In this document: one piece after another, positions 1 to 64,000 of the stretch
Layout: each line of letters begins with the position of its first letter
How positions within the stretch are numbered: the first letter of the stretch is position 1
Program-made: the position numbers and the translations under genes
Notes under the pieces: model-generated
What the model was told of the DNA's origin: nothing
What the model saw: only the letters and a program-made list of their open reading frames with translations
Databases searched by the model: none
DNA from: Corynebacterium jeddahense
GTDB taxonomy: Bacteria > Actinomycetota > Actinomycetes > Mycobacteriales > Mycobacteriaceae
Length of the DNA: 64,000 nt
Direction of reading: 5' to 3'
Assembly (NCBI RefSeq): GCF_028609865.1
Contig: NZ_CP063194.1
Location: 2,232,001-2,296,000 of the forward strand

Positions 1-1131
1 GTCCTTCACGCCGGAGAGCGTGATGGAGCCCGTCGCGGTCGGCTCGGCGATGCCTTCGAACTGCTTCTTGAAGTCGTCCCAGGACGTGGTGCCGTTCGGG
101 AACTTCTGCTTGAAGGAGTCCTGCAGCTGCGTCTCGGACGGAGCCTGGCCGGTGATCGCGCCCTTGTCGTCGATCGTGAAGGCCCAGTTGTCCGCGCCCT
201 TCGACGGGGTCACGCCGGTCTTCTCGATCGGGGCGTTCACCGTCTGGTCAGCGAACGGGTCCTTCGTCGTGCCCTTCGCACCCGGCTTCACCTGCGTGGC
301 GTCTGCGCCGTATTCCGGAGCGATGACGTTGATGCGCAGGTCGTCGCCGTTCTCGTCGCGGACAGTCTTGCCGTTGCCGTCCTTGATCACCACTCGAGCC
401 TCACCCGGCTTCGTGCCCTTCGGCACGGTCACCGTGATGTTGCCCTCGTTGTCGATCTCCACCTTCGAGCCCGGGATCTCCTTGCCGTTCGGGCCGACAA
501 CGGTACCGGTGTAGCCGCCGTCCTTCTTCGGGTTGTCGATGCGGCCGACCGTGTGCCCCTGGCCATCGGCCGGAACGTCCGGCGTGGTGACGCTGGAGGT
601 GTGGGAGCCGTTGTCGTCGCGGTTCTTCTCGTGGCCGGTCACCGGCACCTCGACCTCGACCTTGCCGTTCGGCAGCGACGGATCCTCGATGGTCACGGTG
701 ATCGGGCCATCGACATCAGTACCCGGCGTGACGACGACGTTTCCGTCGCCATCGATGGAAGCCTTGACTTCCTTGCCGTCCTCGTCCACCGCGGTGGCCT
801 TGGTGCCCTCGGTCGGGTTCTTCACCACGATGCCGGTCGGCTGCTCATCCTCGGTCGGGTTGACCGGATGGACGCCGTTGCGATCGACCGTGACGCGGTT
901 GTCATCGCGGTTCTTCTCGTGGCCGTTCACCGGCACCTCGACCTCGACCTTGCCGTTCGGCACGTCAGGATCGGTGATGGTCACGGTGATCGGGCCGTCG
1001 ACGTCCTCGCCCGGGATGACGCGGACCTTGCCCTGGTCGTCGATACGCACGTCAACGTCCTTGCCGTCTTCTTCAAGGCAATTCCCTTCGAAAGGAGTGG
1101 GGTGAACAGCGTCAAGGCTTTCAGCAAACAT
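1..1131 (-). pseudogene. Rib-repeat surface protein, 5'-truncated, continues past left edge
   Basis: The minus strand is open from an ATG at 1131 to the left edge. From about 1085 leftward it encodes tandem Rib/alpha-type repeats: two clear units share VDGPITVTI and NGKVEVEVPV followed by GHEKNRDDN, then comes a different domain (PGSKVEIDNEGNITVTVPKG). Such repeats normally form a stalk in cell-wall or secreted surface proteins. No signal peptide is present. Coding similarity stops inside a repeat unit at about 1085, and the residues before it (MFAESLDAVHPTPFEG) look unrelated. An in-frame TAA lies a little further upstream. I therefore read this as a surface-protein gene that lost its 5' end when the neighbouring DNA arrived. 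A functional gene with a new start is less likely. Its end lies outside the window. Confidence 0.75.
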
Positions 1132-1530
1132 ATCATAGACATACGTCTGCGACGTTTGATCAACTGGAGATTACGCCGGCTCACAGTGCACTTCAACGCT
1201 TTTTGCCGACAAAGCCGAAAGATTGAAATTGGCTAAGGAATAGCGCTTTTCAAACTTCAGCGGGTGACCACAGCACCCAAGCGTCACCTGTTTGCCAATT
1301 GTTCCGTTTCGGTGCCTTTTGTTGACACGTGACCCCACAACGACATACTCGACCCGCCAGGCATATCGGGGCCCCTGAGAGAATCCCTCAAAATCTCTTT
1401 TCTACACATGTCCCCGCAATACCCCACCTTGGGGTGACCCCCGCCCACGCACGCAGCACTCCGGATGACACGCCGCATCTGTCAGAACGAATTACACTTT
1501 GCATAGCTCTACGATTCTGAGGAGGTCACC
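1132..1530. promoter_or_regulatory. Intergenic region with probable ptuAB promoter
   Basis: These 399 bases are visibly less GC-rich than the rest of the window and hold no convincing gene. A TTGACA at 1322-1327 lies 16 nt before CATACT at 1344-1349 and is a plausible sigma-A promoter for the downstream pair. A small CCCCA/TGGGG hairpin lies near 1420-1440. The segment joins the truncated surface gene to the defence genes, so it probably came with the island. I see no integrase, tRNA or clear attachment repeat. Confidence 0.4.
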
Positions 1531-3528: not shown

Positions 3529-3550
3529 CCGGGAGGACGTCGATAAGCAA
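3529..3550 (-). repeat. Dispersed uptake-like motif copy next to terminator
   Basis: On the minus strand this reads TGCTTATCGACG followed by TCCTCCCGG, a full copy of the dispersed 12-mer with its degenerate flank. It lies just past the terminator that ends the surface-protein remnant, at the right edge of the defence module. Confidence 0.7.
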
Positions 3551-3563
3551 AAAGCCTCAAAAA

Positions 3564-4527: not shown

Positions 4528-4573
4528 TCTACCCCGGTTCGGGGGTAGACGCTTTCGTCGATAAGCGAAAAGC
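4528..4573 (-). terminator. Terminator hairpins downstream of purA
   Basis: Reading the minus strand after the purA stop, a short GCTTTTCG/CGAAAGC hairpin has a copy of the dispersed 12-mer (4556-4567) in its loop. It is followed by a TCTACCCC/GGGGTAGA stem (4528-4535 with 4542-4549). The motif copy inside a terminator recalls uptake-sequence terminators. Confidence 0.6.
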
Positions 4574-4575: not shown

Positions 4576-5865
4576 CTACCGCTCCATGACGTCGTGGCGC
4601 ACGATCGTCTGATCGCGGCCCGGGCCGACGCCGATGTAGCTGATCGGCGCGCCGGAGAGCTCCTCGAGGCGCAGCACGTAGTCCTGGGCCTTCTGCGGCA
4701 GCTCGTCGAAGGTCGTGCACGAGGTGATGTCCTCGTCCCACGCCGGCATCGTCTCGTAGATCGGTGTGGCGTGGTGGAAGTCGGTCTGGGTGAGCGGCAT
4801 CTCGTCGAAGCGCGTGCCGTCGACGTCGTAGGCAACGCAGATCGGGATCTCCCCGATGCCGGTGAGCACGTCGAGCTTGGTCAGGAAGAGGTCCGTGAAG
4901 CCGTTGACGCGCGAGGCGTAGCGCGCGATCACGCTGTCGTACCAGCCGGTGCGGCGTTTGCGGCCGGTGTTCACGCCGACCTCGCCACCGGTGACCTGGA
5001 GGAACTCGCCCCACTTGTCAAAGAGCTCCGTCGGGAACGGGCCGGCGCCCACGCGGGTGGTGTACGCCTTGATAATGCCCAGCGACGCCGTAATGCGCGT
5101 CGGGCCAATGCCGGAGCCCACGCACGCGCCGCCGGCGGTGGGGTTCGAGGAGGTGACAAACGGGTAGGTGCCGTGGTCGACGTCGAGCATCGTGGCCTGG
5201 CCGCCCTCCATGAGCACGTGCTTTCCCTCGTCCAGCGCGTCGTTGAGCACGCGCTCCGCGTCGATAACCATGGGCGCGAGCCGCTCGGAGTAGCGCCCGA
5301 AGTAGTCCATGGTCTCCTCGACGCTGATGGCGCGGCGGTTGTACATCTTCACCAGCATCTGGTTCTTCACATCGAGGGCGGACTCGATCTTCTGGCGCAG
5401 GATGGACTCGTCGAAGACGTCCTGGACGCGCAGGCCCACACGCGCCACCTTGTCCGCGTACGTCGGGCCGATGCCGCGGCCTGTCGTGCCGATGGCGCGC
5501 TTGCCCAGGAAGCGCTCCTGCACCCGGTCGAGCTGCTGGTGGTACGGGGCGACGAGGTGCGCGTTGGCGCTGACCTTCAGCCGGGAGGCGTGCGCGCCAC
5601 GGGCCTCGAGCCCGTCGATCTCGTCGAAGAGCGCCTCGAGGTTGACCACCACGCCGTTGCCCAGGATCGGGGTGGCGTTCTCGCTGAGTACGCCGGCGGG
5701 CAGGAGCTTCAGCTCGTACTTCTCGCCGCCGACCACGACGGTGTGCCCCGCGTTGTTGCCACCGTTCGGCTTGACCACGTAATCCACCTTGCCGCCGAGG
5801 ATGTCGGTCGCCTTGCCTTTGCCCTCGTCGCCCCACTGGGCCCCGACGATGATGATGGCTGACAT
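4576..5865 (-). CDS. purA: Adenylosuccinate synthetase
   Basis: 429 aa, the usual length. It catalyses the GTP-dependent joining of IMP and aspartate, the first committed step of AMP synthesis, in the cytoplasm. The glycine-rich GTP loop QWGDEGKGK (10-18) includes the catalytic Asp13, and NNAGH supplies His41. [17 protein letters not shown] and the C-terminal VGPGRDQT are family signatures. The ATG follows AAGGAG at a good distance. A TACAAT -10 box lies about 35 nt upstream in the short divergent gap. It appears to be monocistronic, with its own terminator. In the IMP-loop region [13 protein letters not shown] replaces the more common EGAQGTLLDVDHG, a mild variant. Confidence 0.97.
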
Positions 5866-5917: not shown

Positions 5918-6715
5918 ATGCGGCTCATCCACTGCGCGTGCGGCGCCGAGACCACCATTCCGGGGGCCGAGGAGCATCTGCTTAGCGACGCCCCCTCGCG
6001 GTCCGACCTCACCTTCCTCACCGACGCCGCCCGGGAGCTCCTCCCCGTCGACCCCACCCCCTCGCTCGACGAAATCCAGCGCAGCCCCAACGTCGCCCAT
6101 CTCGGCGAGCCTGCCTTCGCGCCCCAGGAGCCCGCGGAACGCCTCCGCGTCGTCGTTTCCGGCACGGATCGCTCGCTCGGGCTGGTGCTCACCCGCCTCA
6201 TGCGCGCCGACGCGATGTGGGTCGAGGTCGGGTACGTGCCCGTCGATACGCAATCGCCCGCCGCTGTGCTGTGGGGCGCCGGGCCGGTCGAGCTCGCCGT
6301 CGAGGGGGCGGTGCGGCCCGCGCCGTGCATCCGCACCGACTTCGGCGAGGTGGTCGCCGGATCCGCCGAGCTCATGCGCGGCGGGGGCGAGCGACCGTTT
6401 GTCGGCGAGGTCGTCGTCGACTCGGCGGTCCTCGTCCCCGGCGACGGCGACTTCGGCGCCCGCCTCGTGCCCACTGTCGACGCGCCGGGCCTCGCCGCCA
6501 CGCCCGTGACCACGCCGTTCGTGCCCTCGCGCCGCCTGCTGCGCCGCGTCCCGGTCGCGCGCACGGACGCCTCCCGCGTCCTTTCGGGTCGCGCGCTGCA
6601 GTCGGGGGGCGAGGACATCGCCGTGCGTATCGACGCCCACCTCCGGCCCCGCACCGTCAACCGCGTGACCTTCTACCGCCATTTGCGCGACATTCAGAGC
6701 GTCCGCGGCGCTTAA
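5918..6715 (+). CDS. Conserved hypothetical protein divergent from purA
   Basis: About 265 aa with no domain I can name. It begins MRLIHCACGAETT, suggesting a small Cys pair (CAC), and continues with mixed alpha/beta sequence rich in Val, Ala and Asp. There is no signal peptide or membrane helix. Two starts are possible, GTG at 5909 or ATG at 5918; the region has no clear ribosome site, so a leaderless or near-leaderless message is likely. The C-terminal part carries a complete copy of the dispersed motif (6624-6649), read as VRIDAHLRP, and another minus-oriented copy lies at 6241. It is divergent from purA. The protein is probably soluble; its function is unknown. Confidence 0.6.
   Translation: MRLIHCACGAETTIPGAEEHLLSDAPSRSDLTFLTDAARELLPVDPTPSLDEIQRSPNVAHLGEPAFAPQEPAERLRVVVSGTDRSLGLVLTRLMRADAMWVEVGYVPVDTQSPAAVLWGAGPVELAVEGAVRPAPCIRTDFGEVVAGSAELMRGGGERPFVGEVVVDSAVLVPGDGDFGARLVPTVDAPGLAATPVTTPFVPSRRLLRRVPVARTDASRVLSGRALQSGGEDIAVRIDAHLRPRTVNRVTFYRHLRDIQSVRGA
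6624..6649 (+). repeat. Dispersed uptake-like motif, near-complete copy
   Basis: TGCGTATCGACG is followed three bases later by ACCTCCGGCCCC. This is one of the best copies of the long form and lies inside the coding region, where it reads VRIDAHLRP. Confidence 0.8.
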
Positions 6716-9249: not shown

Positions 9250-9293
9250 ACCTCCGGTCAGCGGGGCTGGCCGGAGGTGGCGTCGATACGCAA
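9250..9293 (-). terminator. fbaA terminator merged with a long motif copy
   Basis: ACCTCCGG (9250-9257) pairs with CCGGAGGT (9271-9278), and on the minus strand the stem is followed by TTCGGCGTTTTT. The right arm is also the flank of a perfect dispersed-motif copy (9270-9293, TTGCGTATCGACG then CCACCTCCGGC on the minus strand). The flank therefore doubles as a hairpin arm. Confidence 0.8.
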
Positions 9294-10380: not shown

Positions 10381-11577
10381 TTACGCCTCCATCGCAGCGA
10401 CCTTCGCCGCCGCCTCGAGCAGCATCCAGCCGGAGAGCTGGACCGAGAGGTCGCGCTCGTCGATACGCAAGAGCCCCACCGCTTCGCTTATCGACGAAGG
10501 CCCAAGGCCGTAATTGTGCGGGAGCTTCGCATCCTGCGTCCACTCGGCCGCGAACACGGGCAGGCCGTCCACCTCGAGGCGGTGGGACCAGAGCGACTCG
10601 GCGGACTGCATGACCAGGCGCGCCGCGATCTTCTTCGTGGCGATGTTCTCCTTCGAGTCCGCGGGCAGGCGCAGCGCGACCTCGGCGAGGTAGCGCGCGA
10701 GGATGCCCTTGAACAGGCCGCCGTCGCCCTCGCCGGACTCCTGCGGCGGGCTGACGAGCACGCCCTGCGGGGTGGCCAGGTCGAGCGCAACCGACTGGAC
10801 AATCGCCCGGATGTGGGTGATGTAGAACATGGACGCGTCCGCGCGCTCGGAGTACTCGAAGGAGTCGATCGGCTCGTCGTGATCGAGGCCGACGTCCTCG
10901 CGCAGGGCGAGCGCGATCTCCAGGCTCGCGCCGAGGACGGTGCCCTGGTTGTAGGTGTAGACCTTGTCCACCACCTCGGGCCCGCTCATGCGCATGCGGA
11001 TGCCGTCGTCGAGCAGGCCGTCCTCGCGCACGAGGTTGTCGAAGATCCAGTCCACGATCTCGCGGGCCTTGTCCAGGCGGCCGGTGGTGGCGAAGATGAT
11101 CGCGGCCGGCGCGTTCGAGGGGACGTTGTAGAACGTCTCGCCCTTGCGCCAGGGCAGCACGCCGGTCACCGGGTCGATGCCGGCGAGCAGGTCGAACTCG
11201 AGCTCGCCGAGCGCCCGGGTGCGCTTGATCCCGTCGAGCTGCGTCGCGCGGTTCCACGCGAGGGTGAGCCAGGCTTTGTCGTCGTAGTGCAGGTTCGCGG
11301 TGAGCTTGCCCCGGTTGCGGCGCTGGATCCCGCGCAGCGTGTCCGCGATGCGCCGGCGCCGGGTCTTCGTCCCGCGGCGCAGCGCGGCGTCCACCTGGCA
11401 GTCGAGGTACTGCGCCTGCCACCAGTAGTGCCAGTGCCAGAACAGGTGGTCCTTCAGCCCCGGCGGCCACGTGACCACCGCGAGGTTCGTTTTCGGCATG
11501 CCCCACAGCTTCTTGGCGTGGCGCTCGGTGACGGCTGATTCAGCCAGGTCGGCGCGGTGCGCCCACGTTTCCGTCAC
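10381..11577 (-). CDS. Glycoside hydrolase family 76-like protein
   Basis: 398 aa resembling GH76 (alpha-1,6-mannanase-like, alpha/alpha barrel): repeated aromatic helices such as HLFWHWHYWWQAQYLDC, YDDKAWLTLAWNRA, TYNQGTVLGASLEIAL, and the acidic pair expected near YDDKAW. There is no signal peptide, so it should act inside the cell, perhaps on mannan-type precursors; that is inference. Close to the 3' end two copies of the dispersed motif face each other (10458-10470 and 10484-10496) and are read as LLRIDER and PSSISEA. The gene lies just downstream of a perfect palindrome (11666-11699), which may be its operator. It could be part of an fbaA-linked cluster conserved in the genus. Confidence 0.72.
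   Translation of the reverse strand: MTETWAHRADLAESAVTERHAKKLWGMPKTNLAVVTWPPGLKDHLFWHWHYWWQAQYLDCQVDAALRRGTKTRRRRIADTLRGIQRRNRGKLTANLHYDDKAWLTLAWNRATQLDGIKRTRALGELEFDLLAGIDPVTGVLPWRKGETFYNVPSNAPAAIIFATTGRLDKAREIVDWIFDNLVREDGLLDDGIRMRMSGPEVVDKVYTYNQGTVLGASLEIALALREDVGLDHDEPIDSFEYSERADASMFYITHIRAIVQSVALDLATPQGVLVSPPQESGEGDGGLFKGILARYLAEVALRLPADSKENIATKKIAARLVMQSAESLWSHRLEVDGLPVFAAEWTQDAKLPHNYGLGPSSISEAVGLLRIDERDLSVQLSGWMLLEAAAKVAAMEA
10458..10496. repeat. Inverted pair of dispersed-motif copies inside a gene
   Basis: CGTCGATACGCAA (10458-10470) and TCGCTTATCGACG (10484-10496) face each other across 13 bases. The pair lies within the GH76-like coding region and could form a hairpin, like the inverted pairs of uptake sequences in other bacteria. 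Confidence 0.75.
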
Positions 11578-11699: not shown

Positions 11700-12382
11700 T
11701 ACCATGCCCCCGACAGGTCCGCGTGTTGGCGGATCCAGGCGTGCATCGCGATGCCCGCCGCCACGCCTGCGTTGAGCGAGCGCGTCGAGCCGAACTGGGC
11801 GATTGAACACGTCATCACCGCGGCGTCCTGCGCCGCCCGCGTCACGCCGGGGCCCTCCTGGCCGAAGAGGAGGACGCACTCGCGCGGCAGCTCGGCCGTC
11901 TCCAGCGGCACGCAGCCCGGCGTGTTGTCGATGGCCACGACCGGGATGCCCTCCCCGTCCGCCCACGCGAGCAGGTCCGCGACCGTCTCGTGGTGGCGGA
12001 TGTGCTGGTAGCGGTCAGTGACCATCGCGCCGCGCCGGTTCCACCGCTTCCGGCCGACGATGTGCACCTCCTTGGCCAAAAACGCGTTGGCGGTGCGCAC
12101 GACGGTGCCGATGTTCATGTCGTTCTCGAAGCTCTCGATGGCCACGTGGAACGGGTGGCGGCGCCGGTCGAGGTCCGCGACCACGGCGTCGAGGGACCAG
12201 TAGCGGTACGCGTCCACCACGTTGCGGGTGTCGCCCCCGGCGAGGAAGGCCGGGTCGTAGCGGGAGTCGTCCGGCCACGGGCCCTCCCACGGGCCGACGC
12301 CGTGGCGGCCCTCGTTCCACTCGGTGGGGCCGCGGTCGCTCGGGGTGGGGCTGGGCTCGCCGGAGGTGGCGTCGTTACGCAA
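11699..12382 (-). CDS. TrmH/SpoU-family RNA 2'-O-methyltransferase
   Basis: About 227 aa of the SPOUT superfamily. The three motifs of the knotted SAM-binding domain are visible: NDMNIGTVVRTANAF, LLFGQEGPGV and GSTRSLNAGVAAGIAMHAW. These enzymes methylate ribose in tRNA or 23S rRNA; the target cannot be read from sequence. I prefer a TTG start at 12382, which overlaps the pyrE stop and has GAGGA upstream; longer readings run into the pyrE frame. The chosen start is part of a dispersed-motif copy, so the N-terminus LRNDATSGEPSP is largely motif-encoded. It is translationally linked to pyrE. Confidence 0.85.
   Translation of the reverse strand: MRNDATSGEPSPTPSDRGPTEWNEGRHGVGPWEGPWPDDSRYDPAFLAGGDTRNVVDAYRYWSLDAVVADLDRRRHPFHVAIESFENDMNIGTVVRTANAFLAKEVHIVGRKRWNRRGAMVTDRYQHIRHHETVADLLAWADGEGIPVVAIDNTPGCVPLETAELPRECVLLFGQEGPGVTRAAQDAAVMTCSIAQFGSTRSLNAGVAAGIAMHAWIRQHADLSGAW
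12359..12382 (-). repeat. Dispersed uptake-like motif at the pyrE/trmH junction
   Basis: On the minus strand this reads TTGCGTAACGACG then CCACCTCCGGC, one base off the core. It supplies both the pyrE stop (TAA) and the probable TTG start of trmH. Confidence 0.7.
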
Positions 12383-19448: not shown

Positions 19449-19909
19449 GTGGAAGCAACAACGCCGACCGCGCTCTGCGGCATGCACATCATCGAGCTGC
19501 TCCAGTGGGCGAGCGGCTGCAGGGGCACGAAATCGCGACCGCGCTGGGCATCGACAGGCGCTCCGTGCGCAGGCACATCAGCCAGCTCAGGGCCGCGGGG
19601 TACGAGGTCAAGAGCAGCCGGGGCTCGTACGGGAGCTACTGGCTCGGCCAGGGCAACACCATCGCGCCATTGCGTTTCGACGATCCGGAGGCCCGCACCG
19701 TCCTCCTCGCACTCTCGACATTGCTCGCCGCCCTCGACAGGAACGATCCGCTCTGGGAGGAGACACTCGAACTGCTCGAAAGCATGCGCGCCGTGCTGCC
19801 CGAGGCGGTCGTGGCCGAGGCGCGGGAGCAGGAACGCGAAGTTACCAGGCGCATCAAGAAGATGAGCGCGGTCTATGGGGTGTGGGAAAGGGCCGAAGGG
19901 CGTCGATAA
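19449..19909 (+). pseudogene. HTH (WYL-type) transcription regulator, frameshifted and truncated
   Basis: A GTG at 19449, five bases after GGAGG, begins METTPTALCGMHIIELLQ-like sequence. The frame then breaks near 19506, and the winged-helix continues two frames over as GERLQGHEIATALGIDRRSVRRHISQLRAAGYEV. Restoring one missing base gives the exact helix spacing of HTH_11/DeoR-type domains. The following region (PLRFDDPEARTVLLALSTLLAAL...LESMRAVLPEAVV) resembles the linker of YafY/WYL regulators, but the WYL effector domain is missing. The stop codon (TAA) is provided by a dispersed-motif copy (19892-19912), 10 nt before the convergent gene end. Doubly damaged, probably inactive. Confidence 0.65.
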
Positions 19910-19919
19910 GCACGATGCT

Positions 19920-30261: not shown

Positions 30262-32248
<1,987 letters not shown>

Positions 32249-33887: not shown

Positions 33888-34041
33888 GTTCAGGGCCTTT
33901 CTCGTTTTCGGGTTGCGAATGTGGCCTACGCTACACCGCACACGTGTTGTGGTCTAGAACATTTTTCGTATCGACGGCCATTCGGCCCTCCCTCGCAGCT
34001 CACACATATGCAACGCGCAGCATCTCTGGCACAATGTCCGA

Positions 34042-35457: not shown

Positions 35458-35501
35458 GTACGGTGGATGACGCAATTGCTTATCGACGAAAGGACGTTTC
35501 C

Positions 35502-51793: not shown

Positions 51794-53040
51794 CCCAAAA
51801 AGAGAGCACAAGACATGCCGGTGAGCGCACCGCGGCCCGCAGGCGGTTCGTCGCCCCCGACCTCGCGCGCGGGCTCGCCCTCGTCGGCATCGCGATGGCC
51901 AACATGGTCACCGACTGGGACCCGGCGGAGGGTGTCGACCACGCGGCGGGCCTCGGCGGCTACAACGGCGACGGCACCGCGTGGGAGAAGCTGCTCGTCT
52001 TCTTCGAGACGCTCTTCGTGCATGTGCGCGGCCTACCCATGTTTGCCACCCTCCTCGGAGTTGGCATCGGCATGATCTTTGTCAGCCTCGAACGGCGCGG
52101 CTACCCGCTGCGCGCCCGGCGCGGGGTGCTCGCGCGCCGCTACGGGTTCCTGTTCCTGTTCGGTCTGGTGCATAAGACGCTGTTTTTTACCAACGACATC
52201 ATGACGGCCTACGGCATCGCCGCACTTATCCTGTGCTTGTTCATCGGGTGGAGCGACAAGGCCCTCTACGCCCTCGCAGGTGCTGCGTTCGCCCTGAACG
52301 CGGTGCTTCGGGCACCTGGCGTATTCGCCGCGTTTTCGTCGACAGCAGAACCGATAGACGGCAGCCCCGCGCGCATCTTCGACCTCAGCGACCGCATAGC
52401 CGCGGGCCTGGCCAACTTCTGGGTGTACCCGGCAATGGGCGTGATCGAGATGCTCGCCTTCTTCCCGCTCGTCGTGGTCGGATTCGTCTGGGGCCGCCGC
52501 GGCGTCTTCGGCGACGTCGACGGCAACGCCCGGATGCTCCGCGGGTGGGCGATTCTTGCAGCCGTCGTTATCGCGGCCGTCGGCATCCCGTGGGGCTGTG
52601 CGGAAGTCGGCGCGCTCGGCCCGGGTTGGGCGGTCGGCTTCAACGCCGCGAACGAGGTCGCCGGCATGCTCACCGGCCCCGGCATCCTCGCCGCCATCGC
52701 GCTCGCGTGCCGGCCGTTGCAGTCGCGTATCGACGCCTCCGGCACCCTTCCGCCGCCGGCCCAGACCCTGGCCCAGCCGCTGGTGGCGCTAGGCAAGCGC
52801 TCCATGAGCGGCTACCTCGAGCAGACGGTCCTGTTCATCCTGACCACGCAGCCCGCGTTCTGGTGGGCGACCCGCGACGCCACCATCGCCGGCAAGCTCG
52901 GCTGGGCGCTGCTCGTCTGGCTGGCCACGCTGGCTGGCGCGTGGGCGCTGGACAAGGCGGGCAAGCCCGGCCCCTTCGAGTGGCTGCACCGCCGCCTGTC
53001 CTACGGCAAGGACGGCCTGCCGGAGCACTACCCCGGATAG
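51790..53040 (+). CDS. DUF418 membrane protein
   Basis: 416 aa, polytopic, with the family start FVAPDLARGLALVGIAMANM, the block ARRYGFLFLFGLVHKTLFFTNDIMTAYGI and the C-terminal DUF418 part GKRSMSGYLEQTVLFILTTQP...GPFEWLHRRLSYG. Related to YeiB-like proteins of unknown function that often accompany transporters. GTG start overlapping the permease stop. Contains a motif copy (52723-52743; SRIDASG). Confidence 0.88.
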   Translation: MTQKESTRHAGERTAARRRFVAPDLARGLALVGIAMANMVTDWDPAEGVDHAAGLGGYNGDGTAWEKLLVFFETLFVHVRGLPMFATLLGVGIGMIFVSLERRGYPLRARRGVLARRYGFLFLFGLVHKTLFFTNDIMTAYGIAALILCLFIGWSDKALYALAGAAFALNAVLRAPGVFAAFSSTAEPIDGSPARIFDLSDRIAAGLANFWVYPAMGVIEMLAFFPLVVVGFVWGRRGVFGDVDGNARMLRGWAILAAVVIAAVGIPWGCAEVGALGPGWAVGFNAANEVAGMLTGPGILAAIALACRPLQSRIDASGTLPPPAQTLAQPLVALGKRSMSGYLEQTVLFILTTQPAFWWATRDATIAGKLGWALLVWLATLAGAWALDKAGKPGPFEWLHRRLSYGKDGLPEHYPG

Positions 53041-53114: not shown

Positions 53115-54824
53115 GTGGATCTCATCCGCCTCACCGCGCGCTATGGCAAGCGGTACGCGGGCCAGATCACGGTGGTGGTGCTGCTGCAGCTCATCACCAC
53201 GCTGGCCACGCTGTACTTGCCGGACCTCAACGCGGACATCATCAACACCGGCGTCGCCCAGGCGGATGTCGGCTACATCTGGCGCGTCGGCGGGAAGATG
53301 CTCGTCGTCGCGCTCGTGCAGGTCGCCGCGGCCATCGGCGCGATGTGGTTCGCCTCGCAGGCCGCGATGGGCACGGGCCGCGACATCCGCACCGCCGTGT
53401 ACGGGCAGGTCTCGTCCTTCGACAGCGAAGACATGGCTGCCTTCGACACCCCCTCCCTGATCACTCGCGGCACGAACGACGTCCAGCAGGTGCAGATGAC
53501 GTTCCTGCTCTTCCTCAGCTTTATGGTGGCCGCCCCGATCATGGCCATTGGCGGCATCGTCATGGCGCTGCGCCAGGACGCGGGCTTGTCCTGGCTGGTG
53601 GTCACGGCGGTGCTCGTGCTCACGGTCGTGGTGGCCATCATCGCCGCGCTGCTCATGCCGATGTTCAAGAAAATGCAGGCGAAGCTGGACGGCATCAACG
53701 GCCTGCTGCGCGAGCAGATCGCCGGCATCCGCGTCGTGCGCGCGTTCAGCCGCGAGGACTACGAGGAGCGCCGCTTCCACGACGCGAACGAGGAACTCAG
53801 CCGCCTCAGCCTCAACATCGGCCGCGTGTTCGTGACCATGTTCCCGGTCATCATGCTCATCATGAACCTCGCCACCGCCGCCGTGCTCTGGTTCGGCGGC
53901 CACCGCGTCGACGACGGCCTCGTGGAGGTCGGCTCGCTCTCCGCGTTCATGCAGTACCTGCTGCAGATCCTCATGACGGTGATGATGGGCGTGTTCATGC
54001 TCATGATGCTGCCGCGCGCGATCGTCTGCGCGGACCGCATCGACGAGGTGCTCGCGTACGAGCCGAGGGCGCGGCGGGGTACCGGAGGTCCGTCGAGAAG
54101 CGAGGGCCTCGTCGAGTTCGACGACGTCTCCTACACCTACCCCGGCGCCGAGCAGCCGGTGCTCGAGCACATCTCGTTTACGGCGCGCCCCGGCACGACG
54201 ACCGCGATCATCGGCTCCACCGGCGCCGGCAAGACCACGCTCGTCGGGCTCATCCCGCGGCTCTACTCGCCCACCTCGGGGCAGTTGCGTATCGACGGCC
54301 ATCCGGTGACCGACACCTCCCGCGAGCAGCTCGTGCGCTCGGTGGGCATGGTGCCGCAGAAGCCGTGGCTGTTCTCCGGCACGGTGGCGTCGAACCTGCG
54401 CATGGGCAAACCCGACGCGACGGACGAGGAGCTCTGGGCCGCGCTGCGCACCGCGCAGGCCGGCTTCGTCCAGGACCTGGACATGCCGATCGCCCAGGGC
54501 GGCACAAACGTCTCCGGCGGGCAGCGCCAACGCCTCTGCATCGCCCGGCTGCTCGTGGCCGACCCGGACGTCTACATCTTCGACGACTCCTTCAGCGCCC
54601 TGGACGCCACGACGGAGGCGAACCTCAACGCCGCGATGCACGAGACGGTGCGCACCAAGACGGTGATCGTGGTGGCGCAGAAGGTGAGCAGCATCCGGCA
54701 CGCGGACCAGATCCTGGTCATGGAGGCCGGGCGCATCGTCGCGCGCGGCACGCACGAGGAACTCATGGCCTCCTCGGAGACCTACCGCGAGATCGAACAC
54801 AGCCAGGCGGAGGTGGACGCATGA
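53115..54824 (+). CDS. ABC exporter half-transporter A (degenerate ATP site)
   Basis: 569 aa: six-helix ABC exporter domain (to about 310) and ATPase domain. Walker A GSTGAGKTT is normal, but Walker B is VYIFDDSFSALDA with Asp instead of the catalytic Glu, and the switch region is VVAQKV with Gln instead of His. This is typical of the non-catalytic site of heterodimeric exporters such as TM287/288 or LmrCD. The 4-nt overlap with the next gene supports the heterodimer. Starts GTG after GAGGGG. Motif-like insert GGPSRSEGL (54081-54103). Confidence 0.92.
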   Translation: MDLIRLTARYGKRYAGQITVVVLLQLITTLATLYLPDLNADIINTGVAQADVGYIWRVGGKMLVVALVQVAAAIGAMWFASQAAMGTGRDIRTAVYGQVSSFDSEDMAAFDTPSLITRGTNDVQQVQMTFLLFLSFMVAAPIMAIGGIVMALRQDAGLSWLVVTAVLVLTVVVAIIAALLMPMFKKMQAKLDGINGLLREQIAGIRVVRAFSREDYEERRFHDANEELSRLSLNIGRVFVTMFPVIMLIMNLATAAVLWFGGHRVDDGLVEVGSLSAFMQYLLQILMTVMMGVFMLMMLPRAIVCADRIDEVLAYEPRARRGTGGPSRSEGLVEFDDVSYTYPGAEQPVLEHISFTARPGTTTAIIGSTGAGKTTLVGLIPRLYSPTSGQLRIDGHPVTDTSREQLVRSVGMVPQKPWLFSGTVASNLRMGKPDATDEELWAALRTAQAGFVQDLDMPIAQGGTNVSGGQRQRLCIARLLVADPDVYIFDDSFSALDATTEANLNAAMHETVRTKTVIVVAQKVSSIRHADQILVMEAGRIVARGTHEELMASSETYREIEHSQAEVDA

Positions 54825-57070: not shown

Positions 57071-57673
57071 GTGAGTACCCCCTACGGCAATTTTCGAATC
57101 GGCGACCAGGAGCGCATGGACGCCATGGACGTGCTCGGCCGCGCGCTCGGCGAAGGTCGGCTCACGATGGCGGAGTTCGACGAGCGATGCCGCGCGGTTG
57201 CCGAGGCGCAGACGCACGCCGACCTCCAGCCCGTGTTCGCGGACTTGCCGACGGTGGGGGCCGGAGGTGGCGTCGAGAAGCGAGCGCCCGCGGACGCCGT
57301 CTTCTACTCCCAAGCCGAAATCATGGAGGCCCGCCGGGCGGGCAAGCGCACGCGCGCCGGCATCTTCTGGCTGGGCACGCTCGCCTCGCTGGGGCTGACG
57401 GCGCTGCACCCGATCTTCCTCCTGCTCATTCCGACCCTGTACATCCTGCTGTACGTGATGAAGGTGGGGCCGGACTCCTGGTACGCGCCGAGCCTGCGCC
57501 AGCTGGAGACGCGCCGCCGCCAAGAGCTCAAGGCGCGCCAGCTCGAGATCGAGGCCGCGAAGGCGCAGCAGCAGGCGCTCATGCGCGCGCAGCGGCAGGA
57601 TCAGTTCAACCAGCTGACCTCCGACGCCCTCAACGCCGCACAAAACACTGTCAACCGTTTCCGCAACCACTAA
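57071..57673 (+). CDS. DUF1707 membrane protein with coiled-coil tail
   Basis: 200 aa. The first 60 residues are a DUF1707 domain (FRIGDQERMDAMDVLGRALGEGRLTMAEFDERC), then a linker carrying a degenerate dispersed motif (57260-57283), a hairpin of two membrane helices (AGIFWLGTLASLGLTALHPIFLLLIPTLYILLYVM) and a C-terminal helix rich in Gln/Ala (RRQELKARQLEIEAAKAQQQ). DUF1707 proteins are common in actinobacteria and of unknown role. Starts GTG, with TACCAT 7 nt upstream, so leaderless. Confidence 0.82.
   Translation: MSTPYGNFRIGDQERMDAMDVLGRALGEGRLTMAEFDERCRAVAEAQTHADLQPVFADLPTVGAGGGVEKRAPADAVFYSQAEIMEARRAGKRTRAGIFWLGTLASLGLTALHPIFLLLIPTLYILLYVMKVGPDSWYAPSLRQLETRRRQELKARQLEIEAAKAQQQALMRAQRQDQFNQLTSDALNAAQNTVNRFRNH
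57260..57283 (-). repeat. Degenerate copy of the dispersed motif
   Basis: On the minus strand CGCTTCTCGACG then CCACCTCCGGC: the flank is perfect but the core carries TC for AT. Same variant as at 54081-54103. Confidence 0.6.
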
Positions 57674-57694: not shown

Positions 57695-58936
57695 ATGAGT
57701 GAGCCACTGCAGAAGCACCGCCATTTCGACCAGGCGGACAAACTGAAAAACGTCTTCTACGACATCCGCGGCCCGGTGACCGCGACGGCGGAGAAGATGG
57801 AGCGCGACGGCCACACCATTTTGAAGCTGAACACCGGCAACCCCGCCATCTTCGGATTCGAGGCGCCGGACGTGATCATGCGCGACATGATAGCCAACCT
57901 GCCCACCTCCCAGGGCTACACCACCTCGAAGGGCATCACTTCCGCCCGGCGCGCCGTGGTCACCCGCTACGAGATGATCGAGGGCTTCCCGGAGTTCGAC
58001 ATCGACGACGTCTACCTGGGCAACGGCGTCAGCGAGCTCATCTCCATGGTCACGCAAGCTTTGCTTAACGACGGCGACGAAATCCTCATCCCCGCCCCCG
58101 ACTATCCCCTGTGGACCGCGGCGTCCACGCTCGCCGGCGGCAAGGTCGTCCACTACATGTGCGACGAGGAGGACGGCTGGAACCCGTCGCTCGACGACAT
58201 CCGCGAGAAAGTCACCGACCGCACCAAGGCGATCGTGGTGATCAACCCCAACAACCCCACCGGCGCCGTCTACTCGCGCGAGGTACTCGAGGGCATCGCG
58301 GACGTCGCCCGCGAGCACGAGCTCATGATCCTCGCCGACGAGATCTACGACCGCATCCTTTACGACGGCGCCACGCACACCTCCATGGCCGAGATCGCCC
58401 CGGACCTGCTGTGCATCACCTTCAACGGGCTATCCAAGGCGTACCGGGTGTGCGGTTACCGCGCCGGCTGGATGGTAATCACCGGGCCGCGCCGCCGTGC
58501 CGAGGGCTTCATCGAAGGCCTCGACCTGCTCAGCGGCACGCGCCTGTGCGCCAACGTGCCCGGCCAGCACGCGATCCAGGTGGCGCTCGGCGGCCGGCAG
58601 TCCATCTACCAGCTCACCGCCGAGGGCGGACGCCTGCACAAGCAGCGCGACGTGGCGGTTCGCAAGCTCCGCGAGATTCCGGGCGTGTCCGTCGTGGAGC
58701 CGAAGGGCGCGCTGTACTGCTTCCCCAAGATCGACACCGAGATGTACAACATCCACGACGACGAGAAGTTCATGCTCGACCTGCTCAAGAGCGAGAAGAT
58801 TCTCATGGTCCAGGGCACCGGCTTCAACTACCCCACCCCGGACCACTTCCGCGTGGTCACGCTGCCGTGGGCGTCGCAGCTGGAGAATGCGATCGAGCGC
58901 CTGGGCAACTTCCTGGTGGATTACCACCAGCACTAG
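57695..58936 (+). CDS. alaT: AlaT-like aminotransferase
   Basis: 413 aa, fold-type I class I/II PLP enzyme. N-terminal FYDIRGPVTATAEKMERDGHTILKLNTGNPAIFGF, LGNGVSELISMVTQALL, INPNNPTGAVY and the PLP lysine in NGLSKAYRVCGYRAGW. It best matches the alanine/valine-type aminotransferase AlaT/AlaA (pyruvate/glutamate), known as alaT in C. glutamicum. ATG with a TACAGT box 8 nt before it, so likely leaderless. A fold-back element follows its stop. Confidence 0.9.
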   Translation: MSEPLQKHRHFDQADKLKNVFYDIRGPVTATAEKMERDGHTILKLNTGNPAIFGFEAPDVIMRDMIANLPTSQGYTTSKGITSARRAVVTRYEMIEGFPEFDIDDVYLGNGVSELISMVTQALLNDGDEILIPAPDYPLWTAASTLAGGKVVHYMCDEEDGWNPSLDDIREKVTDRTKAIVVINPNNPTGAVYSREVLEGIADVAREHELMILADEIYDRILYDGATHTSMAEIAPDLLCITFNGLSKAYRVCGYRAGWMVITGPRRRAEGFIEGLDLLSGTRLCANVPGQHAIQVALGGRQSIYQLTAEGGRLHKQRDVAVRKLREIPGVSVVEPKGALYCFPKIDTEMYNIHDDEKFMLDLLKSEKILMVQGTGFNYPTPDHFRVVTLPWASQLENAIERLGNFLVDYHQH

Positions 58937-59207: not shown

Positions 59208-62200
59208 GCCGAGCTGCCCTCCCCGTAGCGGGTCACGCTGCTCTTGTCCTGCAGGCTGGAGCCGTTCTCGAAGTCGATCGACGTCGCGGCTTTGCCCGGG
59301 TCGGCGGTGCACCAGTCGTACAACACGGCGCTAAGAGCAACGACGCCCAGAATGCCTCCGACGACCTTGCCCAACTGCTGCACCTCCGGCTGGCCGGCAA
59401 CTTGCTGGAACTGAGCGTTGACGGCATTTGCCCGTCGGCGCAGTTCCTCGAACTGCTCGTTGCGTTGCCCGCCGCGGCCGCCGACACCCCAGTCGCGGGT
59501 CTGCTCCTGCCAACGGCGGTTCATTTCCGCGTTGATCTGGTTGATCTGCGCCTGGTACTGGCCGATGTACGGCTTGACCAGATCGCCGCCCACTGTCGCC
59601 AGCAGTCCGATTGGAATCAGCCACAGGATCGGCGAGCGCACCGCGTTGGCCACGCACCGGTCAATGACCTCGCTGCCGGAGGAGCCGGTGGCATCGGTCG
59701 CGGTTGCCGAGGTTGTCGGGGGTGCTGGCTGGGTAACTGTTGCGGTTGCGGCCGGCTGGGTCACAGTAGCGGTCTCGGTGACCGCGGACTGCGGCACCGT
59801 CTCGGTGGCGCGCTCGGTGATCGTCTCCGTCGCCCCCGCCTGCGCCGGGCGGTAGCTGCCCGAGATCAGGTACGGGCCGTCCACCTTGGCGCCGTCCGTG
59901 CGGGTGTAATCGACTTGCACCTCCGTCAGCTCGCCGACGAAGTTCGGCTCTGGCACGAAGGTGACGTGGCCGTCCTCGTGGATCGTCCAGGTGCCCTGGT
60001 TCGGGATGGTGAGGGTGCGGGAATCGTCGCTAAGCAATGTGCCCTCGATGGGGCGGAACTTGCGCGATTGCTTATCGACGTTGCCGTCCTGCAGCACCAC
60101 CTGCACCACAGTTCCCTGGATGGTGTCGATGCGCGCGCGGCCGGGCGTGAACTCGACCGACGTGCCGGATTGCGCAGTTGACGTGACGGTGGCGTTGTTG
60201 GTGATCGTCACCGGGTCCGGGGTGACCGTGACCGCGGGCAGCGTCACCGTGACAGGCGCCGGGGTGACCGTAACCGGGATAGTTTCGGTGCCGCCCGGGA
60301 TGGTCGTGGTGACCGGGTTCGGGGTGACCGTCTTCGGCTCCGGGCTGATGGTCAGCGTGCTGGTGATCGCGCTGGGCTCGCCCGGGATGGTGACGACGGT
60401 CGTGATCGGGTCGTGCGTGACCGTCACCGGTGCCGGGGTGACCGTGACCGGCTGCGGCTCGTTGACCTGCGTGACCGTGGTGACCAACGGCTCGGGGGTG
60501 ACGGTGACCGGTTCCTGTGTGACCGTGACGGCGTCCGGTGTGACGGTGGTCGTCTCGACCGGGTTGGTCACGGTGAGGACGTCGGTGGCGGTGGCGGTCG
60601 CCGTTTCGGTAGCGGTTTCGGTGGTCGGCAGGTTGTAACCCACGGTCACCGTCGCCGAGGCGTGCGCCCTCACACCGTCACTGTTGTAGCCGGTGTAGTT
60701 GATCGGGGCCGGGTCACCGGTGAAACCGTCCTCCGGGGTGAACGTGAAGGTGCCGTTGGTCACCGTCCAGGTGCCCTGGCCCGGCACCACGAGCGTAGTC
60801 ACTTCCTGGCCTGAGTTGGTGAGGATGCGCACCGTGTCTCGGTTCACCTCGCCCGAGTACTTCGGCGTCACGGCAATCGGGCCCGGGGTGCGGACGATGC
60901 GCTCTGCGTCCGAAAGCGCGAGATCCGCAACCGTGATGGTGGTGGGCACGTTCGAGGTGATCGTGGTCGGAACCGACTGCGTCTGAGTCACCGTCGTCGG
61001 GGTGCCGTCAATGGTGGTCGGTACCTCGCGCGTCACCGTCACGGGTGCCGCAGTTTCTGTCTGCGTCGCGGTGGTGAGCACGTTCGACGTGGTGGTTGCC
61101 GTCGTGGTCGCCGTCGTCTTGCCCGTCACGGACACCTGGTAGGTGGTGGTCTTGGTAGCACCCGTCGCGGTGGTGGCCTGCACGGTCACCGGGTCCGGCG
61201 TGCCGCTGAAGTCCTTCGCCGGGGTGAAGGTGACCACACCCGTCGATGGATCAATCTGGAACGTGCCCTCATCGGTCTCAATCTTGTTTTCCGTCGCGCC
61301 CGCCAGCGAGTAAGTGACGGTCCAGGCGCTCGGGAAGGACGGGAACATTTCCGCGCCAGTCTTCGAGGTCTGGGTCTGGTTGAGGTCGCCAGTTGTCACC
61401 GACGGGGAGGTCCGCGGCGAGCGGTAGTCGCCGGAGACCGTGCCGGTGTCGGTGGACTGCACACCGTTGGTGTTCTTCGCGGTGTAGTTCACCGGGGTCG
61501 GAGTGCCGTAGTAGCCGTCTACCGGGGTGAAGGTGAACGTGCCGTTGTTATCGACGGTCCAGGTGCCCTGCCCGTCGACCTTGAGTTCCTTGCCTGCGGG
61601 TTTCCCGTCGGCACCGACGAACTCCACCGTGGACTTATCGACCGTGTCCAGGTACCTCGGCGTGACCTTCAGGGGGCTGCCGATGTTGCCGAGCACGGAG
61701 GCGTCGTAAAGGTGCACATCCACCGGCTCAACGACGGCGGTGTACTTCGCCGTCGGCGTGCCCTGCGCGTTCACGATCCCGATGCCCACCGACTGCGCCG
61801 TGCCGACGAATGCAGGGTCCGGGGTAAACGTGACCTGGCCGGTTGTCGGGTTGATGGTGTACGTGCCCTCGCCCGCGACGGTGAGGGTGTTGTTCTCCGC
61901 CGGGGTGCCGTCCGGGGCAAACAACCCGAAGACTGCCTGGTCCCACCAGGTGGCCTGGGCGATGTTCGGGAACATCTCCTTCGCAGTGAGACCCTGGTCT
62001 TGGCGGTTCTTGTCGTCGGAGTGCTGCGTCACGCCCTGCAGATTGGTCGTGACAGCCGACGTCGGATCCGGCGTGGGGTAGAACGCCGAGATCTGGCCGG
62101 GCACCTGTGCAGGGATTCCGTCGAGGTTGGTGGCGGTGTAGTCGATGGGGGTCGGGCTGCCCACAAACGCGCCGCCCTCACCGTCAGGTCCCTGCGGAGT

Positions 62201-64000
62201 GAAGGTGAAGTTGCCTTGCTCATCGACGGTCCATGTGCCCTCGCCTGGCACAACCAGCGTCTTGCCGTCATCGGAGAGCGTGCTGCCTTGCGGCGCGATG
62301 ATCCGGATCGTGCTCGTGTCGACAGTCTTGTCGAGGTATTCGGGCGTGATCGTGACCGGCTGGCCAATGCGGGTGGCCTTGGCGTAGTCGGACGGGATCT
62401 CAACGCGCACCGGCACCACGAACGGCTGGTAGGTGCTGGTCATCTCGGTCGGCTGGCCGCTGGCGTCCCTGAGGCCGACGGTCTGGATCTCCACTGCCGG
62501 GGCCTGGCCTGTGAAGCCCTTCTCCGGCTCGAACTTCACGGTGCCCTTGACCGGGTCGATGGTGTAGGTGCCCACACCGTCGACCGTAAGAACATTGTCG
62601 GTTGCACCTACGAGCTGGAACTTCACCGGGCTGTTGGCCTTGCCGTACCAATCTCCGGGCAGGTTCGGGAACATCTCGGCAGGGGTGCGGCCGGTGTCGT
62701 TCGCGTCCTTGTCGAAGCTGTTCTGGGCGGTGCCCTGCGGGCCGACGGTGGTGGCGGGGACCGTGATGGCCGCCGGGTAGGTGATGGTCACACCACCGGT
62801 GTCGGTCACCGTGCCGCCGTTGGTGGCCGCGGCGGTGTAGAGCACGCTCACCGGCGTGCCGACGAAGCCCGGCACCGGCGTGAAGGTGAATTCGCCCGTC
62901 GTTGGGTCGACGGTCCAGGTGCCTTGTCCCGGGATGTCCAGCGTCTTGCCGACGGGGTTGCCGGCAGCGTCGAGAAGCTGCACGCTCGTCGGGTCGATGG
63001 TGGTGCCGTAATCGGGCGTCGCCTTACCCGGCTCGCCGAGCGGCGCCGAGTTGGTGGCGGACGGCAGCGTGTACGTGCGGTCTTCGACGGTCGGGATGTA
63101 CTGCGCAATGAGCGTCGAGTTGACCTTCGTACCGTTGGCAGTGGTGTTGATGGCCTGAATCTTCACCCCGCCCGCCTGTTTCGAGGGCTGGCCGCCAAGG
63201 AACCCGGCGTCCGGGGTGAACGAGACCACGCCGGTGGCGGGATCGATGGTGTAGATGCCCTCGCCTGCGACGGGGAGGGTGTCGACGAGGTTGGTGCCGT
63301 CCACGAGCTTGAACTGCACCGGCGCGTTGAACCAAGCCTCGGGCAGGCCCGGGAAGAGCTCCGCGGTGGTCTTGCCGGCGTCGCCCGGGGAGTTCAGGTC
63401 GGTGGATTTCTGGGTGTCGGTCGGGCCGCCGATGGTGGTGGCGGTACGGGTGACCAGCGGGTTGTAGGTAACCGTGACGGTGGACGGCTCGCGGGCCGCG
63501 ATACCGTCGACACTCCGCGCGGTGTACTTCACCGGCGCCGGGTTGCCAAGGAAGCCCGCAACCGGGGTGAAGGAGAACTCACCGGTCGCAAGATCGACGG
63601 TCCAGGTGCCCTGGCCATCGACGGTGAGGGTGGTGCCGACGCGGTTGCCGGAGTCGTCGATAAGCGAAATGCTCTCGGTGTCGATCTTCGGCAGGCCGGC
63701 GATCGCGTAGTCCGGTGTGGCCTTGAGCGTGTCGCCGACGTTGCCGTTGGCGAACGCGGGCTGGAGGTACACGTTCGAGGCGGTAACCACGGGTAAGTAG
63801 GAGCCGTCCGCGCCGCGCTCCTGGCCGTTCGCGGTGGTGAGGTTGGCGATGCGCACGCCGACCTCCGGTGCGGGGCCGACGAAGAACGGGTCCGGGGTGA
63901 AGGTGACCTCGCCGGACGCGGCGTCGATGGTGTAGGTGCCAACGTTGTCGTACTTGAGCGCGGTGTTCGGCGCGATTGCGTTGCCGTTCCGGTCGACAAG
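59201..64000 (-). CDS. Giant CshA-repeat surface protein, continues past right edge
   Basis: About 1,600 codons are visible without a stop; the start is outside. Two repeat types of about 100 aa alternate: one with GQGTWTVDxxTGEFxFTPVxGF and PVxYTAxNxDG, the other with EMFPxLPxxW and GEGTYTIDPxTGxVTFTPD. This is the CshA-type fibrillar repeat plan used by adhesins. A Thr/Val/Pro segment of PVTVT repeats (60190-60600) follows, then a further repeat block. The end is an anchor of two hydrophobic helices (SPILWLIPIGLLATV and VVGGILGVVALSAVLYDWC) around a Gln/Asn-rich helix (QYQAQINQINAEMNRRWQEQ), with a Ser-rich tail. There is no LPxTG motif. Likely role: attachment or cell-cell contact. Confidence 0.9.
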   Translation of the reverse strand, partial: LVDRNGNAIAPNTALKYDNVGTYTIDAASGEVTFTPDPFFVGPAPEVGVRIANLTTANGQERGADGSYLPVVTASNVYLQPAFANGNVGDTLKATPDYAIAGLPKIDTESISLIDDSGNRVGTTLTVDGQGTWTVDLATGEFSFTPVAGFLGNPAPVKYTARSVDGIAAREPSTVTVTYNPLVTRTATTIGGPTDTQKSTDLNSPGDAGKTTAELFPGLPEAWFNAPVQFKLVDGTNLVDTLPVAGEGIYTIDPATGVVSFTPDAGFLGGQPSKQAGGVKIQAINTTANGTKVNSTLIAQYIPTVEDRTYTLPSATNSAPLGEPGKATPDYGTTIDPTSVQLLDAAGNPVGKTLDIPGQGTWTVDPTTGEFTFTPVPGFVGTPVSVLYTAAATNGGTVTDTGGVTITYPAAITVPATTVGPQGTAQNSFDKDANDTGRTPAEMFPNLPGDWYGKANSPVKFQLVGATDNVLTVDGVGTYTIDPVKGTVKFEPEKGFTGQAPAVEIQTVGLRDASGQPTEMTSTYQPFVVPVRVEIPSDYAKATRIGQPVTITPEYLDKTVDTSTIRIIAPQGSTLSDDGKTLVVPGEGTWTVDEQGNFTFTPQGPDGEGGAFVGSPTPIDYTATNLDGIPAQVPGQISAFYPTPDPTSAVTTNLQGVTQHSDDKNRQDQGLTAKEMFPNIAQATWWDQAVFGLFAPDGTPAENNTLTVAGEGTYTINPTTGQVTFTPDPAFVGTAQSVGIGIVNAQGTPTAKYTAVVEPVDVHLYDASVLGNIGSPLKVTPRYLDTVDKSTVEFVGADGKPAGKELKVDGQGTWTVDNNGTFTFTPVDGYYGTPTPVNYTAKNTNGVQSTDTGTVSGDYRSPRTSPSVTTGDLNQTQTSKTGAEMFPSFPSAWTVTYSLAGATENKIETDEGTFQIDPSTGVVTFTPAKDFSGTPDPVTVQATTATGATKTTTYQVSVTGKTTATTTATTTSNVLTTATQTETAAPVTVTREVPTTIDGTPTTVTQTQSVPTTITSNVPTTITVADLALSDAERIVRTPGPIAVTPKYSGEVNRDTVRILTNSGQEVTTLVVPGQGTWTVTNGTFTFTPEDGFTGDPAPINYTGYNSDGVRAHASATVTVGYNLPTTETATETATATATDVLTVTNPVETTTVTPDAVTVTQEPVTVTPEPLVTTVTQVNEPQPVTVTPAPVTVTHDPITTVVTIPGEPSAITSTLTISPEPKTVTPNPVTTTIPGGTETIPVTVTPAPVTVTLPAVTVTPDPVTITNNATVTSTAQSGTSVEFTPGRARIDTIQGTVVQVVLQDGNVDKQSRKFRPIEGTLLSDDSRTLTIPNQGTWTIHEDGHVTFVPEPNFVGELTEVQVDYTRTDGAKVDGPYLISGSYRPAQAGATETITERATETVPQSAVTETATVTQPAATATVTQPAPPTTSATATDATGSSGSEVIDRCVANAVRSPILWLIPIGLLATVGGDLVKPYIGQYQAQINQINAEMNRRWQEQTRDWGVGGRGGQRNEQFEELRRRANAVNAQFQQVAGQPEVQQLGKVVGGILGVVALSAVLYDWCTADPGKAATSIDFENGSSLQDKSSVTRYGEGSSAS
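60190..60600. repeat. Internal PVTVT-coding repeat tract
   Basis: Short, imperfect repeats of GGGGTGACCGT and GTGACCGT spacing (minus strand PVTVTP, EPVTVT and similar) run for about 400 bases within the surface gene. The tract could vary in length by slippage and is a probable flexible, extended stalk. Confidence 0.75.

Follow-up and report, generated by a model that had tools for sequence, protein, structure and literature searches.

The 64,000-nucleotide stretch of the Corynebacterium jeddahense chromosome analysed here (the window; positions 2232001–2296000 of NZ_CP063194.1, the single contig of 2,567,696 bp) contains a dispersed 12-mer, YGCKTATCGACG. This word is the head of a polar DNA element, made up of the core and a one-sided tract on its 3′ side, and is probably a DNA uptake signal, by which Corynebacterium would recognise its own kind of DNA during natural transformation. 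In the window, 21 exact copies are present, 10 on the plus and 11 on the minus strand, confirming the dispersed word described in an initial annotation; all 21 places given there were located to within one base, with four minus-strand copies shifted by one (to 3538, 10458, 46234 and 63655), and for each of the 13 places listed for one- or two-base variants, a site with one or two mismatches lies no more than 20 bases away. When one mismatch is tolerated, the window holds 40 sites, of which 21 are exact and 19 deviate at one base, compared with 2.44 ± 1.55 in dinucleotide shuffles of the window, 0 of 100 of which reached 40.

Over the whole genome the 12-mer occurs 447 times, 229 on the plus and 218 on the minus strand, against 1 and 0 matches to the reversed pattern. 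The core GCKTATCGACG has 95 copies in a 444-kb sample, where an order-5 Markov model predicts 7.17; the comparison is conservative because the model was trained on the same sequence. The count thus lies far above the Markov expectation, and copies are found genome-wide and in other Corynebacterium genomes, so that neither chance abundance nor restriction to the window, both raised in the initial annotation, describes the word.

Genes were predicted with a home-made caller that covers 78% of the sample. The 101 GCKTATCGACG sites in 480 kb comprise 37 sense, 37 antisense and 25 intergenic copies and 2 at gene edges, with intergenic counts that are probably too high owing to this coverage. By the sign of the GC skew, 48 copies are oriented with the leading and 53 with the lagging strand, a rough assignment because several loci have near-zero skew; the leading-strand bias of FtsK-orienting polar sequences (KOPS) is absent, as argued earlier from the equal strand split. 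The proposed siting of copies in terminators and gene ends, scored by predicted stop codons only, holds in part. Among 110 sites in a 500-kb sample, 10 on the strand of the gene itself (0.45 expected) and 1 on the opposite strand (0.45 expected) start in the first 10 bases after a predicted stop codon, whereas 74 of the 101 sites lie inside predicted genes. A proposed tendency to form inverted pairs was not borne out: the 500-kb sample contains a single inverted GCKTATCGACG pair spaced at ≤60 bp against 1.7 expected, and the copies of the pair placed at 38792/38952 are approximately 150 bp apart. An excess of close inverted pairs is a feature of uptake sequences, though no requirement.

Selection acts on the DNA and not on the encoded peptide. 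Directly upstream of ATC-GAC-G, 19 of 32 arginine codons are CGT (527 of 7,966 sample-wide) and 17 of 29 leucine codons are CTT (633 of 11,267 sample-wide). When the base after GAC is other than G, CGT is found in 0 of 10 and CTT in 1 of 7 cases. CGT and CTT are therefore used only if the base following the three codons completes the word, and codon pairs for R-I-D and L-I-D fail to explain it, in agreement with the DNA-level selection that had been suggested. In the looser form GCKTNTCGACG, 83 of 88 sense copies share one reading frame.

The element is asymmetric. Approximately 30 nucleotides on the 3′ side of the core are C-rich and G-poor relative to a codon-position-matched expectation, as determined for 94 sense and 71 antisense GCKTNTCGACG copies in 500 kb, and the composition fades to near expectation past about +41. 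The same tract follows 37 intergenic copies when these are compared with their own outer flanks, and in antisense copies the frequencies at +23 to +30 are 0.50 for C (0.33 expected) and 0.22 for G (0.34 expected). Words that differ solely at the synonymous base of the main reading frame differ in their tracts: the mean of (C − G)/30 is +0.216 for GCKTCTCGACG (n = 45) versus −0.007 for GCKCCTCGACG (n = 9), and +0.175 for GCKTGTCGACG (n = 27) versus 0.000 for GCKCGTCGACG (n = 31). In a scan of 14 genomes (sampled genomes are given G numbers), all 7-mers were ranked, without reference to the word, by the C-minus-G skew on their downstream side. TATCGAC came top in this genome, with z 16.4, as it did in G149; TGCCGAT, which is part of the dialect D2 word described below, came top in G006 and G053, and TGACGCC, CGACGCC and GGACGCC in G054, G132 and G147.

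A second module often follows the core in this genome. The initial annotation had many copies continuing into CCTYCGGC; CCTYCGG is found within 20 nucleotides downstream of 7 of the 21 exact window copies. In the genome, CCTYCGG follows within 20 nucleotides at 23% of 187 sites, compared with 1.3% of 1,429 control places. Words of the form [CG]CTYCG[CG] within 14 nucleotides after 203 sites have matched outer bases in 61 of 61 cases (46 C..G and 15 G..C), against 348 C..G, 468 G..C, 460 C..C and 349 G..G in the sample at large. As CCTYCGG follows within 20 nucleotides at only 2 of 340 sites in nine relatives (two word sets of 4 and 3 sites left out), the CCTYCGG/GCTYCGC mini-hairpin module appears to be a lineage-specific extension. 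An outer stem between the upstream and downstream flanks was rejected, their covariation being no better than that of permuted flanks (z 0.07, 0.26 and −0.02).

Counts of the 12-mer, termed dialect D1 (YGCKTATCGACG), range from 0 to 531 over 151 sampled Corynebacterium genomes. Scans of k-mers in motif-poor genomes led to two further words: D2, GCTTGYCGATGC, with 52 to 429 copies in 9 of the 151 genomes and no more than 22 in the others, and D3, MTTGYCGACGCC, with up to 283 copies. At arbitrary cut-offs (D1 ≥ 40, D2 ≥ 40, D3 ≥ 60), 109 of the 151 genomes are rich in at least one word; 64 are classed as D1 + D3, 29 as D1, 7 as D3, 9 as D2 and 42 as none. In a helicase tree of 20 genomes, which included 7 of the 9 D2 genomes, all 7 lie in one clade together with the word-poor G014. 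Some genomes of the none class have candidate words of their own, such as the TGACGCC words of G054; de novo scans gave only weak candidates in G132, G133, G147 and G039 and nothing clear in G014, G041 and G084. G048, of class D3, also carries TTTCCGACG words, and its words of the TTTCCGACG/CTTGACGACG type, like the TGACGCC-type words of G054, hint at further dialects. As a separate observation, stretches of G048 and G077 (L112–L116 and L140–L143) hold related over-represented words with a weak C-rich tract or none.

Among named species, CTTRYCGACG greatly exceeds its reversed pattern in, among others, C. gottingense (870 copies), C. bouchesdurhonense (735), C. kefirresidentii (527), C. curieae (523), C. 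yonathiae (500) and two C. tuberculostearicum records (579 and 592). In C. macginleyi, 28 copies stand against 33 reversed; this species may be a D2 user, as its 7.4-kb locus contains one D2 word, and no loss was counted. A ComEC search returned 16 loci, the closest from C. bouchesdurhonense (65% identity) and C. gottingense (59%), with very near records possibly omitted. In 185 genomes from 30 other genera of the family, totals of a looser 11-mer are 0 to 37, in mostly larger genomes. One of these, G250, has 37 GCKTATCGACG copies versus 1 reversed, the largest of several modest excesses outside Corynebacterium.

The dialects replace one another in place. Strict words within predicted genes of the com and tad loci were mapped by protein alignment among 7 D1 and 7 D2 genomes, and matches to the host's own dialect at the homologous codon were scored by a loose pattern. 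Of 93 comparisons from D2 to D1, 32 have the word of the host's own dialect at the same codon and 1 has that of the other dialect; from D1 to D2, the values are 21 and 1 of 171. Positions shifted by 10 to 30 codons, a control that lets the amino acids vary, gave 0 of 541 and 0 of 947. Between genomes of one dialect, same-codon words were found in 59 of 180 and 14 of 74 comparisons, and at shifted positions in 0 of 996 and 0 of 434. The comparisons share genes and are not independent, the cross-dialect matches falling, by inspection, at approximately 7 distinct positions, which include comEA, a helicase gene and a gene that we take to be lepA. Such matches at the same codon fit conversion of the word by point mutation rather than transposition.

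Candidate uptake machinery is encoded in the genome: ComEC with an adjoining ComEA, DprA, a prepilin peptidase and a Tad locus, in which an Ssd/CpaE-like gene (tadZ), tadA and two TadE-like genes (one above and one below the NCBIfam cut-off) were found, along with genes presumed from position and recall to be tadB, tadC and flp. Micrococcus luteus, also an actinobacterium, transforms by means of a Tad/Flp pilus and ComEA/ComEC genes, and the present genome likewise has Tad/Flp, ComEA and ComEC genes; M. luteus is not known to use an uptake word. ComEC length was also considered as a possible marker of function. Among genomes with fewer than 10 words, 30 of 44 have an open frame of 640 residues or more, versus 12 of 105 others (149 of the 151 genomes; G081 was dropped because a contig end cuts the gene, and G001 was unlisted). 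The marker was rejected: long forms are extended mainly at the N terminus (blastp), the split looks like lineage, and the long frame of G144 is really a 556-residue protein.

On the uptake reading, a surface DNA receptor, perhaps a minor Tad/Flp pilin or a partner of ComEA, would bind the core word in double-stranded DNA, and the asymmetric C-rich tract could ease bending or opening of the DNA during passage through the cell envelope. Import would fall to ComEA and ComEC, and recombination to DprA and RecA. Word-bearing DNA would be taken up preferentially, so that copies arising by point mutation would spread through recombination, and drift in receptor specificity would be followed by drift of the word, giving rise to dialects. 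The element may well represent, on balance, an uptake-signal system of mycomembrane-bearing actinobacteria, with a core and one-sided C-rich tract, three widespread dialects and hints of others, that would act as both a barrier and a guide to gene exchange across the genus.

The layout resembles that of the uptake signal sequences (USSs) of Pasteurellaceae, and the dialects resemble both those and the DNA uptake sequences (DUSs) of Neisseriaceae, a resemblance that is not put forward as class membership. In PMC1626085, the USS is described as a core followed on the 3′ side by AT-rich motifs, the cores of the Hin and Apl types vary by subclade while the flanks persist, and a section heading states that USSs are not insertions. 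The Corynebacterium element likewise has a core, a one-sided 3′ tract, dialects and switching in place. It differs in that the flank is C-rich and G-poor rather than AT-rich, the host is an actinobacterium, and 447 exact copies in 2.57 Mb compare with the nearly one per kb given in PMC1626085. PMC3630211 describes eight DUS dialects in Neisseriaceae, with two dialects in one genome, and one section gives 943 to 5,918 exact copies. The Corynebacterium words are likewise over-represented 10–12-mers with several dialects among relatives, and D1 and D3 both exceed their cut-offs in 64 of the 151 genomes, as in the two-dialect DUS genome. Unlike the DUS, which has no flanking motifs according to PMC1626085, the Corynebacterium word has a flanking tract; and ComP is the DUS receptor, whereas no Corynebacterium receptor was identified. 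Over-representation, strand balance, DNA-level selection, in-place dialects and competence genes, the last of these non-discriminating, are traits shared with DUS/USS-type systems.

The main rival explanation is that the word is the site of a chromosome-organising or nucleoid-associated protein, marking the host chromosome and co-evolving with the protein that reads it. Such a site would be genome-wide, strand-balanced and selected at the DNA level, as the word is; high counts are confined to Corynebacterium among the 31 genera sampled, and transformation genes fail to track the motif. A one-sided C-rich tract of 30 nucleotides is no obvious feature of such a site, however, and nor is the low content of all three words in 42 of 151 genomes, and we regard this explanation as improbable. 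A Chi-like recombination signal, read by a helicase-nuclease in double-strand break repair, would also be polar, frequent and chromosomal. It is considered very improbable: the word lacks orientation bias relative to the inferred replication direction (48/53, a rough estimate), the genome has no match to RecC (PF04257) in a search confined to that family among helicase-nucleases, and the element is longer than Chi, which is a 5–8-mer.

Still less probable is a role in transcription termination or RNA processing, in which C-rich, G-poor RNA past stop codons would form a Rho-entry site. This would fit the tract composition and the 10 of 110 copies just past stop codons, but not the 37 sense and 37 antisense copies of 101 that lie inside predicted genes, nor the antisense copies with the same tract; dialects would also be unexpected. 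A by-product of codon-pair or amino-acid preference (R-I-D, L-I-D), which the single frame of 83 of 88 sense copies would suggest, is refuted as a full explanation and carries almost no weight, given that the choice of CGT and CTT varies with the base that follows the three codons, that antisense and intergenic copies exist, and that synonymous words are without, or nearly without, the tract.

Several observations weigh against the uptake reading. The excess 6–10 bases past stop codons (for example at window positions 4556, 9281 and 19901) is locked in orientation, which uptake does not predict, and even spacing was not found: the gaps among the first 100 of the 229 plus-strand copies have a coefficient of variation of 1.14 and so look random. 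The tract is intermediate in value after the synonymous word GCKCATCGACG (+0.075, n = 12), is lacking in G077 and is weak at best in G048, and no clearly related top word emerged from the skew scan in 7 of the 14 genomes (G077, G048, G133, G084, G041, G039 and G014). The machinery fails to separate word-rich from word-poor species because it is near-universal, and Tad or ComEC presence was dropped as a discriminator: ComEC is found in 151 of 151 genomes, word-poor ones included, and 148 of 151 have a T2SSE (TadA-type) match, which exceeds the cut-off in 145. Word-poor G014, of the D2 clade, has whole-looking comEA, comEC and tad genes (tadF by position only), and no T2SSE match above the cut-off was obtained for three word-rich genomes, each of them fragmented or incomplete: G021 in 80 contigs, G075 in 190 contigs and G119 at 53% completeness. 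No dialect-specific receptor was identified, and a limited literature search found no paper on competence or an uptake word in Corynebacterium. The likeness to uptake sequences drawn in the initial annotation is thus supported in part: it survives the tests of abundance, spread and codon pairing and gains dialects and a polar tract, but lacks an excess of inverted pairs and has random gaps.

Sites of the 12-mer in the window. Exact rows match the 12-mer pattern; variant rows are one-mismatch sites, any single one of which may be due to chance.
Feature	Position	Strand	Context
Exact 12-mer TGCGTATCGACG	1038..1049	-	
Exact 12-mer TGCTTATCGACG	3538..3549	-	
Exact 12-mer CGCTTATCGACG	4556..4567	-	10 bases past predicted stop codon, gene's strand
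Exact 12-mer TGCGTATCGACG	6241..6252	-	
Exact 12-mer TGCGTATCGACG	6624..6635	+	CCTCCGG 4 nucleotides downstream
Exact 12-mer TGCGTATCGACG	9281..9292	-	7 bases past predicted stop codon; CCTCCGG downstream
Exact 12-mer TGCGTATCGACG	10458..10469	-	
Exact 12-mer CGCTTATCGACG	10485..10496	+	With 10458, sole close inverted GCKTATCGACG pair in the 500-kb sample
Exact 12-mer CGCGTATCGACG	13353..13364	+	
Exact 12-mer TGCTTATCGACG	14179..14190	-	Inside rhodanese-domain gene
Exact 12-mer TGCTTATCGACG	19901..19912	-	9 bases past predicted stop codon; CCTTCGG downstream
Exact 12-mer TGCTTATCGACG	21600..21611	+	CCTTCGG directly downstream
Exact 12-mer TGCTTATCGACG	35477..35488	+	Intergenic by home-made gene calls
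Exact 12-mer TGCGTATCGACG	38792..38803	+	Inside CbiX-domain gene; CCTCCGG downstream
Exact 12-mer TGCGTATCGACG	38952..38963	-	Same CbiX-domain gene as 38792; CCTTCGG downstream
Exact 12-mer CGCTTATCGACG	46234..46245	-	Inside Fic-domain gene; GCTTCGC module downstream
Exact 12-mer CGCGTATCGACG	50401..50412	+	GCTCCGC module downstream
Exact 12-mer CGCGTATCGACG	52724..52735	+	Inside DUF418 gene; CCTCCGG directly downstream
Exact 12-mer TGCGTATCGACG	54286..54297	+	Inside ABC transporter gene
Exact 12-mer TGCTTATCGACG	60069..60080	+	Antisense inside CshA-type repeat protein gene
Exact 12-mer CGCTTATCGACG	63655..63666	-	Sense inside same CshA-type repeat protein gene as 60069
One-mismatch variant	5259..5270	-	
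One-mismatch variant	5979..5990	+	
One-mismatch variant	12370..12381	-	
One-mismatch variant, core GCGTTTCGACG	19671..19682	+	
One-mismatch variant	23439..23450	+	
One-mismatch variant, core GCTTCTCGACG	27812..27823	-	Word class also with C-rich tract
One-mismatch variant	28553..28564	-	
One-mismatch variant, core GCTTCTCGACG	31002..31013	-	
One-mismatch variant	33965..33976	+	
One-mismatch variant	34379..34390	+	
One-mismatch variant	36872..36883	-	
One-mismatch variant, core GCTTGTCGACG	40376..40387	-	CCTCCGG downstream
One-mismatch variant GGCGTATCGACG	44170..44181	-	Inside sulfite/nitrite reductase gene
One-mismatch variant, core GCTTTTCGACG	49354..49365	-	
One-mismatch variant, core GCTTCTCGACG	54091..54102	-	CCTCCGG downstream
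One-mismatch variant, core GCTTCTCGACG	57271..57282	-	CCTCCGG downstream
One-mismatch variant	58062..58073	+	
One-mismatch variant	60025..60036	-	
One-mismatch variant	62217..62228	+	

Some genes of the window were observed in their own right. The minus-strand gene at 59201–63856 encodes a 1,551-residue protein with ten matches to CshA-type fibrillar adhesin repeats, that at 45974–47068 (minus strand) a Fic-family protein with a SoFic-like C-terminal domain, predicted to be an AMP transferase, and that at 10381–11577 (minus strand) belongs to glycosyl hydrolase family 76. The window has no match to Rfam families at the gathering threshold. Elsewhere in the genome, a large array resembling clustered regularly interspaced short palindromic repeats (CRISPR) at 9137–17705 of the sampled stretch L004 (about 399137–407705 of the genome) holds 139 matches to GGGGATGAGC or its complement within 8.6 kb, and a k-mer scan of the genome sample returned further frequent words, such as CTTGTCGCCCTT and CCGTCCTTGCCG.

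In 2013, Neisseria and Pasteurellaceae were called unique in requiring short uptake sequences (PMC3630211). If the word is an uptake signal, sequence-specific DNA uptake would extend beyond these two groups. Competence in a large genus would become directly testable, with the words as ready-made reporters, and species with differing dialects would be natural controls in the search for the receptor. Even if uptake proves to be the wrong explanation, a polar, selected DNA word that forms dialects across a genus calls for explanation.

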